Of a stretch of DNA of 64,000 nucleotides, positions 43,129 to 48,733 are shown piece after piece. The stretch is from Nocardia sp. BMG51109 (GTDB lineage Bacteria > Actinomycetota > Actinomycetes > Mycobacteriales > Mycobacteriaceae). A model generated the notes under the pieces. It was not told the origin of the DNA, searched no databases, and saw only the letters and a program-made list of their open reading frames with translations. Location: contig NZ_JAFQ01000004.1 of the NCBI RefSeq assembly GCF_000526215.1, positions 2,170,001 through 2,234,000 on the forward strand. The letters run 5' to 3'. The position numbers and the translations under genes are program-made. How positions within the stretch are numbered: position 1 is the first letter of the stretch; each line of letters starts with the position of its first letter.

Positions 43129-44493
43129 TCATCCGGGCAGCCCGGCGGTCGATGCGGTCCGGTCGTCTTCGGGCACATCTCTCGCCGGGGCCTCCGGCTC
43201 CTCGTCGCGCGCCGCCGGGGCGGCCTCGACAACCGCGCCGGATTGCCGCCCTCGACCGAACAGCCGTGCCCGGCTCGATCGGTCGAGCCGCAGCGCGGTA
43301 CGCAGCGAGACACGGCTTCCGGTGAGCAGCACGGCATTTCCGTAGACGCGCCCGGCCAGGCGGGCGGTCACCGCGATCGTCACCAGGGTGAGCGCCACGG
43401 CGGCGGCCATCTGCCAGCCGGGCACCGTATAAGCGGCGCGCATCGGCATCAGGACCGGCGACAACAGCGGGACCAGCGACAGAACCACCGTCGTCGTCCC
43501 GTTCGGGTGGGCCGGCACCGTGGTCTGCCCGATCAGGTACGCCGCGATCACCAGCACGGTCACCGGGGTGGCGACCGAGGCCAGATCCTCCTGCCGGGAC
43601 ACCAGCGACGCGGCCGCGGCGATCACCAGCGCGTACAGGAAATAGCCCAGCAGGTACCAGACCAGCGCCCACCCGACCACGCCGGTGAGGACCGCGGCCG
43701 ACATGTGCAGCACCCCCGTCGCCACCGCGGTGCCGGCGCCGGCCGCCGCCAGCACCGCGACCTGGGCGATCGTCACGATGCCGATGCCGAGTACCTTGCC
43801 CGCCAACAGTTCCCAGGGACGGATCGTCGCCAGCAGCAGCTCGACGATGCGGTTGGCCTTCTCCTCGACCACCCCCTGCCCCGTCAGCTGGATGCTGATC
43901 AGCAGCATCACGTAGGTCAGCACGCCCACGACACTGGCCATGCCGATGCGGGCGGCGCGGTGCTCGTCGGCCGCCTGCAACGGATGGGTGACCACCGTCG
44001 CCGAGGCCAGGGCCTGCTGAACCGTGGCCGGGTCGCCGCCGAGCGTGACGATCTGCTGATTCAGCGCGAGCTGCCGGGCCAGCAGGCCGAGCGGCGCCTG
44101 CAGATCGTTCGGCAGCGCCGAGTTCACCACCACCTGCAGCCGGGCGGCCCAGTCGTCGGGAGCGTCCACCAGCACGGCCGCCAGATCACCGTCGCGGACC
44201 TTCGCCTCACCCGCGGCCCGGTCGACCACCGTGGTCCGGATCTGCTTGCCCGTCGCCTGCCCGGCGCTGACCAGCAACTGCTGGTATTCGGCCGTCTCCG
44301 CGGTGACACCGATCTGCTGCACCGACGCGGCCTGGCCCCGGCCCAGGAAGTGGAACAGCAGCACCGAACCGACGACCGCCGCCAGCAGCACGATCGTGAT
44401 CACCAGGAACGATCGCGAGCGCAGCCGGGTACCGACCTCCCGGGCGGCGACGAGCCGAATCGCCTGCGTCCCGGACATCTGATCGCTGCTCAC
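43129..44493 (-). CDS. ABC-2 exporter permease (NatB-like)
   Basis: This 454-residue membrane subunit of a Na+/drug-type exporter has an N-terminal REVGTRLRSRSFLVITIVLLAAVVGSVLLF, an extracytoplasmic domain of about 140 residues, then five to six helices (RIGMASVVGVLTYVMLLISIQLTGQGVVEEKANRIVELLLATIRPWELLAGKVLG). The last 60 residues are a charged, probably disordered, cytoplasmic tail. Its start overlaps the ATPase stop. The outer domain shares a 31-bp identical DNA stretch with the neighbouring ATPase gene. Confidence 0.9.
   Translation of the reverse strand: MSSDQMSGTQAIRLVAAREVGTRLRSRSFLVITIVLLAAVVGSVLLFHFLGRGQAASVQQIGVTAETAEYQQLLVSAGQATGKQIRTTVVDRAAGEAKVRDGDLAAVLVDAPDDWAARLQVVVNSALPNDLQAPLGLLARQLALNQQIVTLGGDPATVQQALASATVVTHPLQAADEHRAARIGMASVVGVLTYVMLLISIQLTGQGVVEEKANRIVELLLATIRPWELLAGKVLGIGIVTIAQVAVLAAAGAGTAVATGVLHMSAAVLTGVVGWALVWYLLGYFLYALVIAAAASLVSRQEDLASVATPVTVLVIAAYLIGQTTVPAHPNGTTTVVLSLVPLLSPVLMPMRAAYTVPGWQMAAAVALTLVTIAVTARLAGRVYGNAVLLTGSRVSLRTALRLDRSSRARLFGRGRQSGAVVEAAPAARDEEPEAPARDVPEDDRTASTAGLPG
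44136..44166. repeat. 31-bp direct repeat, copy in permease gene
   Basis: This stretch is identical, base for base, to 44678-44708 in the adjacent ATPase gene. On the coding strand both encode DAPDDWAARL in the same frame. The two proteins are otherwise unrelated. Confidence 0.85.
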
Positions 44494-45398
44494 GCGGCCT
44501 CCTGATCGGTATCGGCGACGACATGCTGGAACAACTCGCTCAAACTGGGCTGCACGCGGGCGAATTCGCGCACCGGGCTCACGGCCAGCGCGGCCGCGAG
44601 CACCCGCTGGTCGTCGACTTCCTCGGTCAGGCGCAGGGTCCAGCGCGACCCGTCTCGGTGATCCACCTCCACGCCGGGCAGCCGGGCGGCCCAGTCGTCG
44701 GGAGCGTCGGGCACGTCGATCGCGAGCCGGGCCGGCCCGCGACTACGCAGTTCGTCGACCGTGCCGCAGGCGATCACGGTGCCGTTGCGGACGATCCCGA
44801 CCCGATCGCACAGCCGCTCGACCAGGTCGAGCTGATGCGAGGAGAACACCACCGGGCTGTTGCCGGCCTCGCAGCGCTCTCGCAGCACCGAGCTCATCAC
44901 CTCGACCGCAACCGGATCCAGGCCGGAGAACGGCTCGTCGAGAACCAGGATGTCCGGGTCGTGCACCAGCGCCGTCGCCAGCTGCACGCGCTGCTGATTG
45001 CCCAGGCTCAGCTTCAGCACGTCGTCGTCGGCGCGCCCGTCGATGCCCAGTCGCAGCATCCACAGCCGCGCCGCGGCATCCGCCTCCCAGGCCGGAACAC
45101 CGTGCAGGCGAGCGAAATACCGCAATTGCGCACCGACCGGCATGCGCGGATACAACCCTCGTTCCTCCGGCATGTACCCGATCCGCCGACGCACCGCTAG
45201 ATCGATCGGCCGCCCCGCCCAGCGCACTTCCCCGCCGTCGGCGCCCACCACTCCCATGACGATTCGCATGGTGGTCGTCTTTCCGGCGCCGTTGGCGCCG
45301 ACGAAACCGAACATCTCTCCCGCGCGCACGTCGAATGTCATGTCCGACAACGCCACCACGTCGCCGTACCGCTTCCGCAGACCCGCGATTTCCAACAC
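44490..45398 (-). CDS. ABC exporter ATPase (NatA-like)
   Basis: This 302-residue ATPase has Walker A GANGAGKTT (residues about 37-45), a signature reading LSLGNQQRVQLATALV (Gly-Asn-Gln replaces the usual SGGQ, as in NatA/DUF4162-type exporters) and Walker B DILVLDEPFSGLDPVAVEV. The switch His is in VVFSSHQLDLVERL. The C-terminal 70 residues form the small DUF4162-like domain. Here lies DAPDDWAARL, shared with the permease. The permease start overlaps its stop, so they form an operon. Confidence 0.92.
   Translation of the reverse strand: MLEIAGLRKRYGDVVALSDMTFDVRAGEMFGFVGANGAGKTTTMRIVMGVVGADGGEVRWAGRPIDLAVRRRIGYMPEERGLYPRMPVGAQLRYFARLHGVPAWEADAAARLWMLRLGIDGRADDDVLKLSLGNQQRVQLATALVHDPDILVLDEPFSGLDPVAVEVMSSVLRERCEAGNSPVVFSSHQLDLVERLCDRVGIVRNGTVIACGTVDELRSRGPARLAIDVPDAPDDWAARLPGVEVDHRDGSRWTLRLTEEVDDQRVLAAALAVSPVREFARVQPSLSELFQHVVADTDQEAA
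44678..44708. repeat. 31-bp direct repeat, copy in ATPase gene
   Basis: Second copy of the repeat at 44136-44166, 542 bp away, in the same orientation and reading frame. It falls in the C-terminal small domain of the ATPase. Confidence 0.85.
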
Positions 45399-45751: not shown

Positions 45752-46150
45752 ATGAGGATGCTCAACGCCCGCTGTGCGATCGTCGCCGTAGCCGTCGGCG
45801 GATTCGCGGTCGGCACCGGGTTGTTCGGATCGGCAGCCGCGTCCGCCGACGCGGTCGACGATATCGGGCCGTTGCTGACTTCGAGCTGTTCCTTCGCTCA
45901 GATCGACTCCGCGCTGCACGAAGTCGCGCCCGATACCGCCGCCCGGCTGGATTCCGTTCCCCTGCAGAAGAATGTTCTGCAGCTCGTGCTCTCCCAGCCC
46001 GCCGACAAGCGCGCGGCGATGTACGAACAGTTGACGACGCAGCGCAAGAAGCTCGCCAGCACCACCGGTATGGATGCCGGACTCGGCGTCGATAGGCCGG
46101 AAATCGGTCCGGTCATGCAGCGGGTCGCCGATTCCTGCCAGCGTTACTGA
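45752..46150 (+). CDS. Hemophore-related secreted protein
   Basis: A 132-residue exported protein with signal peptide (MRMLNARCAIVAVAVGGFAV…AAASADA, cleavage near residue 32). The mature part is helical with two cysteines (LLTSSCSFAQ and DSCQRY) that likely form a disulfide, and ends in Tyr. Size, cysteine spacing and the DDIGPLLTSSCSFAQIDSAL motif fit the Rv0203/Rv1174c hemophore-related family of mycobacteria, some of which bind haem. I cannot identify haem ligands here. GAAGGGTG precedes the ATG. It lies just upstream of two tiny peptide genes. Confidence 0.78.
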   Translation: MRMLNARCAIVAVAVGGFAVGTGLFGSAAASADAVDDIGPLLTSSCSFAQIDSALHEVAPDTAARLDSVPLQKNVLQLVLSQPADKRAAMYEQLTTQRKKLASTTGMDAGLGVDRPEIGPVMQRVADSCQRY

Positions 46151-46306
46151 GGTCGCCTACTGGTCGGTTGTTTTATAGGGCGATCGTCCAAATAAAACAA
46201 ACCTGGCGAAGTTCCCGACACGCCGCCGCGGTTCAGCGGTAACAGAGCCATAGTTGGCATGATCGCTCGTGCTAGTTCACCATCAATCACGCAACAGGAG
46301 GAAAAC

Positions 46307-46393
46307 ATGCTTCTGCCCGTCGTTGGCAGTGCCGCCGGTCTGGCCGTCGCCGCTCTGGGCACGATTGCTGGCATCATCATCGCGGTGATCTGA
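46307..46393 (+). CDS. 28-residue hydrophobic peptide A
   Basis: A short gene with a near-perfect ribosome binding site (AGGAGG, seven bases before ATG). The product begins MLLPVVGSAAGLAVAALG and ends GIIIAVI; it is almost wholly hydrophobic, with one Pro and no charged residue. It is paralogous to the peptide at 46555: same length, 20 of 28 residues identical, same MLLPVVGSA start and GIIIAxI end. A terminator-like hairpin follows 17 bases after the stop. I do not recognise a family. It should insert in or bind to a membrane. Confidence 0.75.
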   Translation: MLLPVVGSAAGLAVAALGTIAGIIIAVI

Positions 46394-46410
46394 TCCAGTA
46401 ATCGATGAAA

Positions 46411-46447
46411 GCGGGTCGGACGTCTGCAGGAGGGACGCCCGACCCGC
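46411..46447 (+). terminator. Hairpin after peptide A
   Basis: GCGGGTCGG at 46411-46419 pairs with CCGACCCGC at 46439-46447; further inner pairing is possible. ATTTCG follows. It lies between the two peptide genes. Confidence 0.65.
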
Positions 46448-46554
46448 ATTTCGCCGTTACGAGCCCGCCGATAATGCGGCGGGTGCACTACCTCGAGACA
46501 TTTGCTCGGCATATTCGCCGAGTCAGCGCACACACCTAGAAACAGGAGAGAACC

Positions 46555-46641
46555 ATGCTGCTGCCCGTCGTGGGAAGTGCTGTCGGTGCGGCCGTCGCCG
46601 CCGCCTCGGTCATCACCGGGATCATCATCGCGATCATCTAG
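46555..46641 (+). CDS. 28-residue hydrophobic peptide B
   Basis: Second member of the pair, with the ribosome binding site CAGGAGAGAACC before ATG. It begins MLLPVVGSAVGAAVAAAS and ends GIIIAII, uncharged and hydrophobic throughout. Third-position GC is high as in real genes of this genome, and the differences from peptide A are largely conservative. It has its own upstream region of 160 bases with small inverted repeats (CCCGCCG/CGGCGGG near 46465-46485) and its own hairpin downstream. Each peptide thus looks like a separate transcription unit. Function is unknown. Confidence 0.75.
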   Translation: MLLPVVGSAVGAAVAAASVITGIIIAII

Positions 46642-46660
46642 TATCGCGCTCCGAACAGAC

Positions 46661-46696
46661 GCGGGCCGGACGCCACGGACTTGGCGACCGGCCCGC
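46661..46696. terminator. Hairpin after peptide B
   Basis: GCGGGCCGG at 46661-46669 pairs with CCGGCCCGC at 46688-46696. It lies between peptide B and the convergent esterase gene, and could serve both. Its sequence and placement resemble the hairpin after peptide A. Confidence 0.65.
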
Positions 46697-46705
46697 GCTT
46701 CGTTA

Positions 46706-47797
46706 CTACAGGCCCATGCCCCGGGCCAGGACCGGCCAGGACCGCTCGAATTCGTCCTGCCAATAGCCCCACGAATGAGTGCCGGGGCCGAGATGATAAG
46801 TCGCCGGAATGCCGAGGGACTCGAGCCGGGACTTCATGTTCTGCGTGCAGTAGTTGGTCGCGGCCTCGATCAGACCGCCGACCGTGACCTGATTGACCAA
46901 CCCACCGACTCCGGGCAATGCATAGGGGTCGCCCAGTGCGTCGTGCCGGCCCGGCATGCCGTTCCCGGACGACATGTAGATGTTGAGCCCGCGTAAATGC
47001 TCGGCCTGAATGTACGGATCGTTCTTCTCCCATTCGGGCGAGCCGACCGGGCCCCACATGTTGTCGGCATTGCCGCCGCCCCACGCGACCGCGGTTTTCA
47101 CGAATCGTGAGCCGACCGGATCGCTGGCTTGAACACATCCGCTGTAAGCCGCCGCCGACTTGAACAGACCCGGCTTCGCGATCGGCAGCGACAGGACCGT
47201 GGTGGCGGAGGTGGAAATTCCGGCGATGGCGTTCAGGCCGTTCGTGCCGAGCGCCCGATCGATGATCGGCGGCAGTTCCTCGGTCAGGTAGGTCTTCCAT
47301 TTGTTGCGCCCGAGCGCGGGATCGTCCTTGATCCAGTCGGTGTAGTAACTGAACTTTCCACCGATCGGCAGGATCAGGTTCGCATTCTTGTCCGACATGA
47401 ACTCCTGGGCATGACCCTTTGCCTGCCAGGATGCCTCGTCCAGACCGCCGCCCGCACCGCTGAGCAAGTACAGGCTGGGCCGCGGCCGCGACCTGTCGGT
47501 CGGCAACTGGATTTCCACCGGAAATTTCTGATCCATGGCCGCGGAATAGATCTGGAGCCGGATATTTCGGTCATCGATGCGCTCGACACCGGCGAGGTGC
47601 GAACCATCGGGCGCCGTGGCGCCGGTTTCCGCCCCGGCCACCGGCGCCGGTGCGGCATATCCGGGCGAGGCGCCGAGTACCGACCAGGCCAGCAGCCCGG
47701 ACAACGCGAAACCGGTAACGGTGCGTGCGCGACGCGCGTTGAGAACCCCTGCTTTCAAACCCCAATTCATACCCAAGCTTTTAGCACGCCCATTCAT
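46706..47797 (-). CDS. Secreted Ag85/esterase-family mycolyltransferase-like protein
   Basis: A 363-residue exported alpha/beta hydrolase of the antigen 85/esterase D group, which in mycolate-bearing bacteria transfers mycolic acids to trehalose or arabinogalactan. The signal peptide ends near residue 49 (…VLGASPGYAAPAP). The nucleophile elbow reads AGISTSATTVLSLP (GxSxS). The C-terminal GTHSWGYWQDEF has the catalytic His and the Trp-rich motif of Ag85. A Cys pair (YSGCVQ, TNYCTQ) is present. Start could also be the ATG nine codons later. Whether it transfers mycolates or only hydrolyses esters is not clear from sequence. Confidence 0.88.
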   Translation of the reverse strand: MNGRAKSLGMNWGLKAGVLNARRARTVTGFALSGLLAWSVLGASPGYAAPAPVAGAETGATAPDGSHLAGVERIDDRNIRLQIYSAAMDQKFPVEIQLPTDRSRPRPSLYLLSGAGGGLDEASWQAKGHAQEFMSDKNANLILPIGGKFSYYTDWIKDDPALGRNKWKTYLTEELPPIIDRALGTNGLNAIAGISTSATTVLSLPIAKPGLFKSAAAYSGCVQASDPVGSRFVKTAVAWGGGNADNMWGPVGSPEWEKNDPYIQAEHLRGLNIYMSSGNGMPGRHDALGDPYALPGVGGLVNQVTVGGLIEAATNYCTQNMKSRLESLGIPATYHLGPGTHSWGYWQDEFERSWPVLARGMGL

Positions 47798-47839: not shown

Positions 47840-48559
47840 TCAACCGCCGGACGACGGTTTCCGATGGTTGTAGCCGGCCACCGGCGTCGACAGCTGCGCC
47901 ACGACCTCGTGATGGAGCTGTCGCTTGATATCGGCGAGGACCGGCCCGCGGGTGTGTGCCACATTCTTGGCGTATTCGACCGCGGCGGGGAGCACGCCGT
48001 CCGCGGGCGCGATTTCATCGATCAGACCCCGGTCCAGCGCCTCGGGGCCGCGATAGCGGCGACCGGTGGCCAGCGCCTCGTGCACGGTCCGCGGCGGCAG
48101 CCGCGCGGCAGCCAGGGCCACGGTGCCGGGGGCGTACGACGTGCCGATCGTGATACCCGGGAAGCAGAAGTAGCCGCGATCGTCGCGCATCACGGCGCGA
48201 TCGTGGGTGAGCGCCAGAAACGCGCCGGCACCGAAGGTGTGGCCCTGCAATGCGGCGACCGTCGGCAGCGGAGATACCAGCATCCGCGCGAACAACCGCT
48301 GGATCTCGCTCAGGTAGGTGTCGACCTCGCCCGGATGCTCCGCGACCCAATTCAGATCGGCGCCGGTCGAGTAGAACTTGCCGGCGCCGACCGTCACCAC
48401 CGCCCGCGGGCCCGGCTCCGCCTCGACCTCGTCGAGCAGTGCGTGGAATCGCGCCATCCACTCCGGGTGGAACCGGTTCTCCGGATCGCTGCTGTCGGTA
48501 TGCTCGGCGTCATCCAGATGCAGGATCGCGACATCGCCCTCGTGTTCAAGGTACGGCAC
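47840..48559 (-). CDS. Enoyl-CoA hydratase/isomerase family protein
   Basis: A 239-residue crotonase-fold protein, starting with GTG (VPYLEHEGDVAILHLDDAEH). Oxyanion-hole regions are GAGKFYSTGADLNWV (residues about 60-74) and ALQGHTFGAGAFLALTHDRAVM. The usual hydratase glutamates are not obvious: GITIGTSYAPGTVALAAARL sits where the second Glu would be. It may therefore be an enoyl-CoA isomerase (PECI-like) rather than a hydratase. It could serve fatty acid or steroid side-chain degradation. An open frame continues upstream, but without family similarity. Confidence 0.83.
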   Translation of the reverse strand: MPYLEHEGDVAILHLDDAEHTDSSDPENRFHPEWMARFHALLDEVEAEPGPRAVVTVGAGKFYSTGADLNWVAEHPGEVDTYLSEIQRLFARMLVSPLPTVAALQGHTFGAGAFLALTHDRAVMRDDRGYFCFPGITIGTSYAPGTVALAAARLPPRTVHEALATGRRYRGPEALDRGLIDEIAPADGVLPAAVEYAKNVAHTRGPVLADIKRQLHHEVVAQLSTPVAGYNHRKPSSGG

Positions 48560-48658
48560 GGGGTGAATGCTACACAGTTGCTGACAACCCTCCCGAGATT
48601 TCCGAGGAGCGTGTACGGCGGGCCGGACGAGCCCCGACCGGCGCAACCGATCCCGCTT

Positions 48659-48689
48659 TTTGACCACGCATACGCCCGGAAGGTACCGT
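48659..48689 (+). promoter_or_regulatory. Possible promoter of tRNA-Ala copy 2
   Basis: TTGACC (48660-48665) and TACCGT (48684-48689) with an 18-base spacer, 45 bases before the tRNA. It is a fair sigma-70-like match but unproven. Confidence 0.3.
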
Positions 48690-48733
48690 TTCGGAGCACA
48701 CGATCGACACTTCGCACTGGTCGAGTGCACGAT

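Follow-up and report, generated by a model that had tools for sequence, protein, structure and literature searches.

Very small envelope proteins have been described in Corynebacterium, and these are the closest known systems to the Nocardia peptides we report here. In C. glutamicum, PorA and PorH (45 and 57 aa) are presequence-less envelope proteins encoded as a tandem pair and are described as MytC substrates (PMC12632848, PMC11927696), with porA and porH lying between groEL2 and a polyphosphate kinase gene (PMC5944148). Another small envelope protein of this species, ProtX (Cg2875; ~3.9 kDa), is reported to be mycoloylated at Ser37, near its C-terminus, and is described as the product of a single gene (PMC5310785). 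The PorA proteins of C. urealyticum (37 aa) and C. jeikeium (40 aa) are single tiny polypeptides which form cell-wall channels (PMC5944148) and are described as amphipathic with charged pore-lining residues. The enzyme Cmt1/MytC is the protein O-mycoloyltransferase of C. glutamicum, with an S189/E310/H341 triad and a mobile segment (residues 271-311) that gates the active site, and it is MytC, not MytA, that is reported to acylate the small presequence-less PorA at Ser15 in vitro (PMC11927696).

The Nocardia peptides are likewise very small and tandemly encoded, but they differ from PorA and PorH in being 24-32 aa long, uncharged and non-amphipathic, in forming arrays of up to six copies, and in lying beside an enzyme gene; no significant sequence match was found with Pfam, NCBIfam or PDB sequences. 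They also lack the charges of the C. urealyticum and C. jeikeium PorA proteins, and their candidate modification site is near the N-terminus, unlike that of ProtX, with which they were compared by description only. Our analysis suggests that the Nocardia peptides would work like PorA, PorH and ProtX without belonging to the PorA/PorH type, as judged by sequence and amphipathicity.

Two peptide genes in a Nocardia window

The window analysed here is a stretch of 64,000 nucleotides from Nocardia sp. BMG51109, in which the first-pass annotation had pointed to a tandem pair of 28-residue hydrophobic peptides between a hemophore-like gene and an Ag85-like esterase gene. The features of the locus are:

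44490-45398, minus strand: ABC transporter ATPase with a DrrA-like C-terminal domain (PF00005)
45752-46150, plus strand: hemophore-related secreted protein, a recurrent neighbour (TIGR04529, 46.5 bits against a cut-off of 32)
46217-46264, plus strand: upstream element GACACGCCG-N28-TTGGCATGATC, putative promoter or operator of the array
46296-46301, plus strand: Shine-Dalgarno (SD) sequence AGGAGG of peptide 1, read from the sequence
46307-46393, plus strand: peptide 1, MLLPVVGSAAGLAVAALGTIAGIIIAVI (28 aa; HMM E 1.0e-9)
46408-46450, plus strand: terminator-like hairpin (inverted repeat) that follows peptide 1 and lacks a U tract
46544-46548, plus strand: SD sequence AGGAG of peptide 2, read from the sequence
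46555-46641, plus strand: peptide 2, MLLPVVGSAVGAAVAAASVITGIIIAII (28 aa; HMM E 6.6e-9)
46660-46697, plus strand: hairpin after peptide 2 (inverted repeat)
46706-47797, minus strand: MytC/Cmt1-like mycoloyltransferase of 363 aa with Ser195, Glu311 and His341 (alignment with the MytC triad)
47840-48730, minus strand: enoyl-CoA hydratase-like gene, synteny marker (PF00378)

Peptides 1 and 2 are real genes. Both plus-strand ORFs are present as first described, each with its own ribosome binding site (AGGAGG and AGGAG), and the peptides share the MLLPVVGSA start, end in GIIIAVI and GIIIAII, contain no D, E, K or R, and are 75% identical. The spacing between the genes is 161 bp rather than 162, and the hairpin noted after each gene is there with a longer stem than the 9 bp first given, the arms being 17 nt and 88% complementary after peptide 1 and 16 nt and 94% complementary after peptide 2. 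A 44-aa in-frame extension of peptide 1 from 46259 is possible; we take MLLP as the start because of the SD and because relatives conserve this start. Under strict criteria (an SD, 20-45 aa, a mean Kyte-Doolittle value >1.6 and none of D/E/K/R), a scan found only peptides 1 and 2 in the window and gave no match in a 400 kb control made up of 20 stretches from other places of the genus picked at round coordinates. The two genes differ at 23 nucleotides but at only seven residues, and none of 3000 neutral simulations had so few residue changes (mean 13.4). The first-pass annotation had made its case depend on conservation and on an excess of silent changes, and we found that both genes are conserved and that silent changes dominate.

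Peptide families and selection

A single-sequence search of the genus recovered matches in 18 of 148 genomes at E<=1, and a profile of 26 members did so in 21 of 150 genomes at E<=0.1, with 16 full-length and five partial (G001, G009, G013, G119 and G141, E 0.06-0.09; left out of the class A count). Class A therefore stands at 53 copies in 18 loci of 16 genomes, with 1-6 copies per locus of either 28 or 32 aa, the longer form being the shorter with four extra mid-helix residues; M1, L3, P4, G7, S8 and G11 are invariant in the 26-member alignment. Full-length class A matches were restricted to Nocardia when 401 genomes of the family (31 genera) were searched (one match outside the genus, G303 at E 0.008, was partial and dropped). 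Scanning the places marked by the neighbouring genes where class A was not matched revealed two further groups, class B (27 aa, MLLSVTVPLGLGV..., loci L131-L135) and class C (25 aa, MLLLGLGSILGP..., loci L136-L138, of which L138 is annotated as 24 aa from a later start). Profile searches placed these in 5/148 and 3/148 genomes, respectively (G004, at E 0.004 a partial match within a 608-aa frame, is left out of the class B count). Carriers of class A, B or C amount to 24 of about 150 genomes and no genome has two of the three.

Purifying selection has acted on the larger classes, with pooled dN/dS values of 0.30 for the 28-aa form (25 distinct DNAs), 0.27 for the 32-aa form (21) and 0.24 for the 27-aa class (9), taken over all pairs, which are not independent; the value of 0.72 for the 25-aa class comes from two sequences and says little. 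At one locus (L041) two copies encode the identical 32 aa with 14 silent differences. A hydroxyl residue is invariant in each class: Ser8 (Ser7 in the 24-aa form) in all 52 class A and C peptides, where it adjoins Gly7 and so is a Ser/Thr in a small-residue context, and Thr6 in 11/11 class B peptides, most of which also have Ser4 (Phe4 in L134). The candidate acceptor hydroxyl is not at one homologous place across all classes. With Eisenberg moments of 0.07-0.22 the peptides lack amphipathicity, a small-residue helix face was mostly not above shuffles, and the start, set by the SD and the conserved MLL, suggests that these 24-32 aa products have no presequence. No family had been recognised at first pass, and this held in searches of Pfam, NCBIfam, PADLOC and PDB, which gave no significant match, and of Rfam, with no match at E up to 1; our literature search did not turn up an account of these peptides. 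The class A-C peptides are families new to the searches made here.

Upstream element, hairpins and translation starts

Sequences preceding the first copy can be aligned between the 28-, 32-, 27- and 25-aa classes. The pattern GACACGCCG-N22-46-GGSATGATC has 32 matches in 31 of 148 genomes, and 20 of these, in 20 genomes, have a length of 48-50 bp and TTGG, i.e. GACACGCCG-N28-30-TTGGSATGATC. In 19 of the 20, a peptide begins 40-62 bp further on in the retrieved sequence; in the remaining one, G008, the coordinates place it 46 bp away. Of the 12 matches without TTGG, 11 were fetched and have no peptide downstream. A stricter pattern found 22 stretches among GTDB contigs, 14 from Nocardia (vulneris, vinacea, pseudobrasiliensis, pseudovaccinii, alni, tenerifensis, brasiliensis (twice), sp. 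CDC159, colli, suismassiliense, transvalensis, ninae and altamirensis), all with a peptide 40-49 bp downstream, and eight from unrelated bacteria, none with a peptide downstream. With up to three mismatches allowed, 11 of 12 carriers have exactly one site, at the array, while the spacing in the twelfth (G036) is not matchable by a fixed pattern. Five class A loci (L036, L039, L042, L043 and L147) have no element match, and in L040 the element differs by one base.

That each copy should be followed by a long hairpin was considered as a general rule and was not borne out. Perfect stems of >=7 bp follow 35/63 copies and occur in 698/2000 random windows, which barely discriminates, and stems of >=14 bp follow 17/63 copies (no random rate was computed for this class). 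Mean downstream folding energy is -28.0 kcal/mol for copies and -24.9 kcal/mol for random windows, and three of the 63 copies fall under the first percentile of the random set. CTGCAGGAGGG is found repeatedly in hairpin loops 3' of copies in several species, including at 46424 in the window, and this sequence is absent from the 400 kb control. A short ORF followed by a hairpin might suggest a leader or regulatory ORF that is translated in order to control the gene that follows, but the next gene is convergent on the other strand, the residues are conserved with silent changes dominating, and the unit has been multiplied; we consider the chance of this to be close to negligible.

Small size, hydrophobicity, tandem repeats and hairpins are also what would be expected of a type I toxin array, in which hydrophobic toxic peptides are silenced by antisense RNA, and the Ldr and Ibs type I toxins are likewise tandem small hydrophobic peptides. 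We nevertheless find a toxin array very unlikely in Nocardia, as local SD accessibility (75-nt windows folded) is 0.45 for copies (n=63) and 0.43 for ordinary genes (n=137), so that within these windows the SD does not look specially hidden, the Rfam and PADLOC searches were without a match, and the arrays are found in the context of an envelope enzyme. No match to plasmids or phages was found either, in a search whose sensitivity is limited by the low-complexity filter; this counts against a toxin array as well as against spread by such elements.

Linkage to a MytC-like enzyme

The gene convergent with the array and 64 bp from it encodes an enzyme with the esterase fold (PF00756), as the first-pass label of Ag85-like implied, but its closest PDB match is Cmt1/MytC, with 235 bits to Cmt1 (PDB 8qhf, 4h18), 162 to PS1 and 97 to Ag85A; the hemophore-like assignment of the other neighbour was upheld. 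S195, E311 and H341 are invariant in 18/18 aligned Nocardia enzymes and line up with the Cmt1 motifs, and a candidate MytC-loop region is present which aligns to Cmt1 with a 6-residue shortfall and is shorter in PS1. We note that the enzyme beside the array in G036 (L037/L088) has one in-frame stop in its MytC-like match. MytC-like enzymes are found in 148/148 genomes and therefore the enzyme alone is no predictor of the peptides.

Among 26 peptide loci (18 A, 5 B and 3 C), two were left out because the array is at a contig end (G059 and G066), and 19 of the 24 assessable loci have a MytC-like gene no more than 3 kb away (11/16 A, 5/5 B and 3/3 C). In class B the enzyme is 1.2-1.3 kb from the peptides, and at the loci inspected a further reading frame separates the two; in L131-L134 we take this frame to be similar to a SAM-dependent methyltransferase. 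The loci without a nearby MytC-like gene are the five without an element match; L039 and L042 keep the ABC, hemophore and hydratase neighbours, and a 1087-aa frame near the class A peptide in L147 (L147:2294-5557) presumably resembles an MmpL/RND transporter. A separate 33-aa SD-led hydrophobic ORF, MSVDVDNVIVVGQALVTVLGVIVKVLPIVLGWF, is seen at L036:15009-15110 and is unrelated to the arrays.

A tree of 53 enzymes (leaving out identical proteins and those under 250 aa) has two clades with 100/100 support. All peptide-linked enzymes fall in clade 1, where they make up 22 of 27, and none of the 26 sampled clade 2 enzymes has a peptide in flanks of 1.5-2.8 kb; it should be noted that the loci are a non-random set, with peptide loci sought, the rest taken from the top of the match list, and many flanks of 1.5 kb. 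The clade 1 exceptions are L081 and L082 (contig breaks), L163 and L169 (which have the class D ORF described below) and L089 from G045, where the flanks and the class C-group enzyme are retained without the element and peptide that would lie between the flanks (L139). The linked enzyme, with MytC/Cmt1 as its best PDB match (4h18, 8qhf) and the triad aligned, differs in belonging to a Nocardia paralogue clade tied to peptide genes, and its activity is a prediction. All five class B enzymes and that of L169 have a stretch of 50 residues where class A and C enzymes have 36-37 (a 14-residue insert), and no insert was found in seven core enzymes (seen in the alignment or script-matched). The stretch aligns with the mobile 271-311 segment of MytC, and as the class B and D enzymes are sisters we regard the insert as one event.

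Other neighbours are kept less regularly. The hemophore-related gene is present at 13/16 A (one partial, L040), 5/5 B and 0/3 C loci, and a homologue of the ABC ATPase (74-77%) is kept beside seven other peptide loci; class C and most class A loci lack it. Leaderless bacteriocins are typically cationic. Leaderless short peptides in multi-copy loci, with an ABC transporter near the array of the window and near seven further ones that might act as an export or immunity pump, could describe bacteriocin-like peptides, but ours are without any charged residue, the ABC gene is absent at most loci, and near-identical copies are under purifying selection across species, which leaves this reading highly improbable.

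We give more weight, while still thinking it unlikely, to non-lipidated inner-membrane small proteins which act as helpers of the MytC-like enzyme, of the ABC transporter or in mycolate handling, so that they would share a pathway with MytC rather than being its substrates. An uncharged single-span composition with no signal peptide, an acceptor position that is not strict between classes, and the ABC homologue kept beside seven other loci would all fit such helpers. They fit less well with the ABC gene missing at most class A loci and class C when the MytC-like gene is at 19/24, with the invariant hydroxyl kept in each class, and with arrays of up to six near-identical copies, which suit an abundant structural product over a regulator.

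Proposed role in the outer envelope

The explanation we favour, tentatively and at somewhat under an even chance, is drawn from sequence comparisons: the peptides may be minimal mycomembrane proteins, probably O-mycoloylated at the invariant Ser/Thr by the linked enzyme. That they are probably new, unusually small outer-envelope proteins is suggested by the families usually being close to a mycolyltransferase-type gene. The first-pass annotation had offered toxins of a type I system and envelope peptides among its possibilities; the envelope branch is strengthened by the MytC-like linkage, the upstream element and purifying selection, and the toxin branch gains no support, given a local SD accessibility close to that of ordinary genes, the lack of PADLOC or Rfam matches and the envelope-enzyme linkage. 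In the proposed mechanism the tandem array would be expressed from one dedicated promoter, and each peptide would consist of one hydrophobic segment, free of charges, that has a single invariant hydroxyl near its N-terminus (Ser8 in the window). The MytC-like neighbour, or a paralogue, would move a mycoloyl chain from trehalose monomycolate to that hydroxyl, acylation would anchor the peptide in the outer membrane, and the copies would probably assemble into oligomers that serve as a channel, scaffold or anchor. We infer the acylation, the placement in the outer membrane, the formation of oligomers and an export that needs no signal peptide. A water-filled PorA-like pore is less likely because of the lack of charges and the low amphipathicity.

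Several points temper this proposal of mycoloylated envelope peptides. Five of 24 loci are without a MytC-like gene, the acceptor position varies, and amphipathicity is low, unlike PorA. O-Mycoloylation sites are described as Ser, less often Thr, among Gly/Ala with no strict motif (PMC11066868), and because of this the acceptor-context match is weak. The case for acylation is also tempered by the report that S15A/S56A substitutions left PorH surface assembly unimpaired (PMC12632848), from which acylation may be dispensable for such proteins, and by the finding that some foreign MytC orthologues do not function in C. glutamicum (PMC5310785).

If the proposal is true, protein O-mycoloylation extends beyond Corynebacterium with predicted substrates genetically tied to the enzyme, MytC substrate choice becomes directly testable, and Nocardia, N. 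brasiliensis included, gains named outer-membrane components whose small size lets them escape gene callers. Even if acylation is wrong, the searches made here found no precedent for a conserved family of uncharged 24-32 aa peptides that has an upstream element to itself.

Small ORFs beside other MytC-like genes

It is possible, though we hold this with distinctly more doubt, that mycolate-bearing actinobacteria have dedicated enzyme-substrate loci in which a MytC paralogue is accompanied by its own multi-copy substrates of 21-54 residues, with the Nocardia arrays, class D and the Rhodococcus MGS peptides as branches; these would be a renewable set and the smallest lipidated outer-membrane peptides known.

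Class D is a 54-aa hydrophobic ORF with repeated GS motifs (L163:2027-2191 and L169:1726-1890); two genomes, one of them Nocardia transvalensis, have it upstream of a clade 1 MytC-like gene (G137, G195 and G218, at E 0.004-0.009, are left out of this search). The pair has Sd/S 17.1/45.7 and Nd/N 21.9/113.3.

In six genomes of another, Rhodococcus-like genus of the family, five of 30 fetched MytC-like loci (L248, L258, L261, L263 and L267) have one or two tiny ORFs, eight in all, of 21-41 aa and all starting MGS (the count leaves out L254, with two starts of one frame and no MGS start). The same filter gave nine matches in the 400 kb control, one with GS among the first eight residues, and three at core Nocardia loci, and the number of MGS ORFs alone is weak because such control matches occur. 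One of the peptides shares 98% identity with a Rhodococcus sp. PvR044 protein annotated as hypothetical. The 21-aa MGS pair is uninformative, and the 41-aa pair has Sd/S of 20.8/30.5 against Nd/N of 10.2/89.5.
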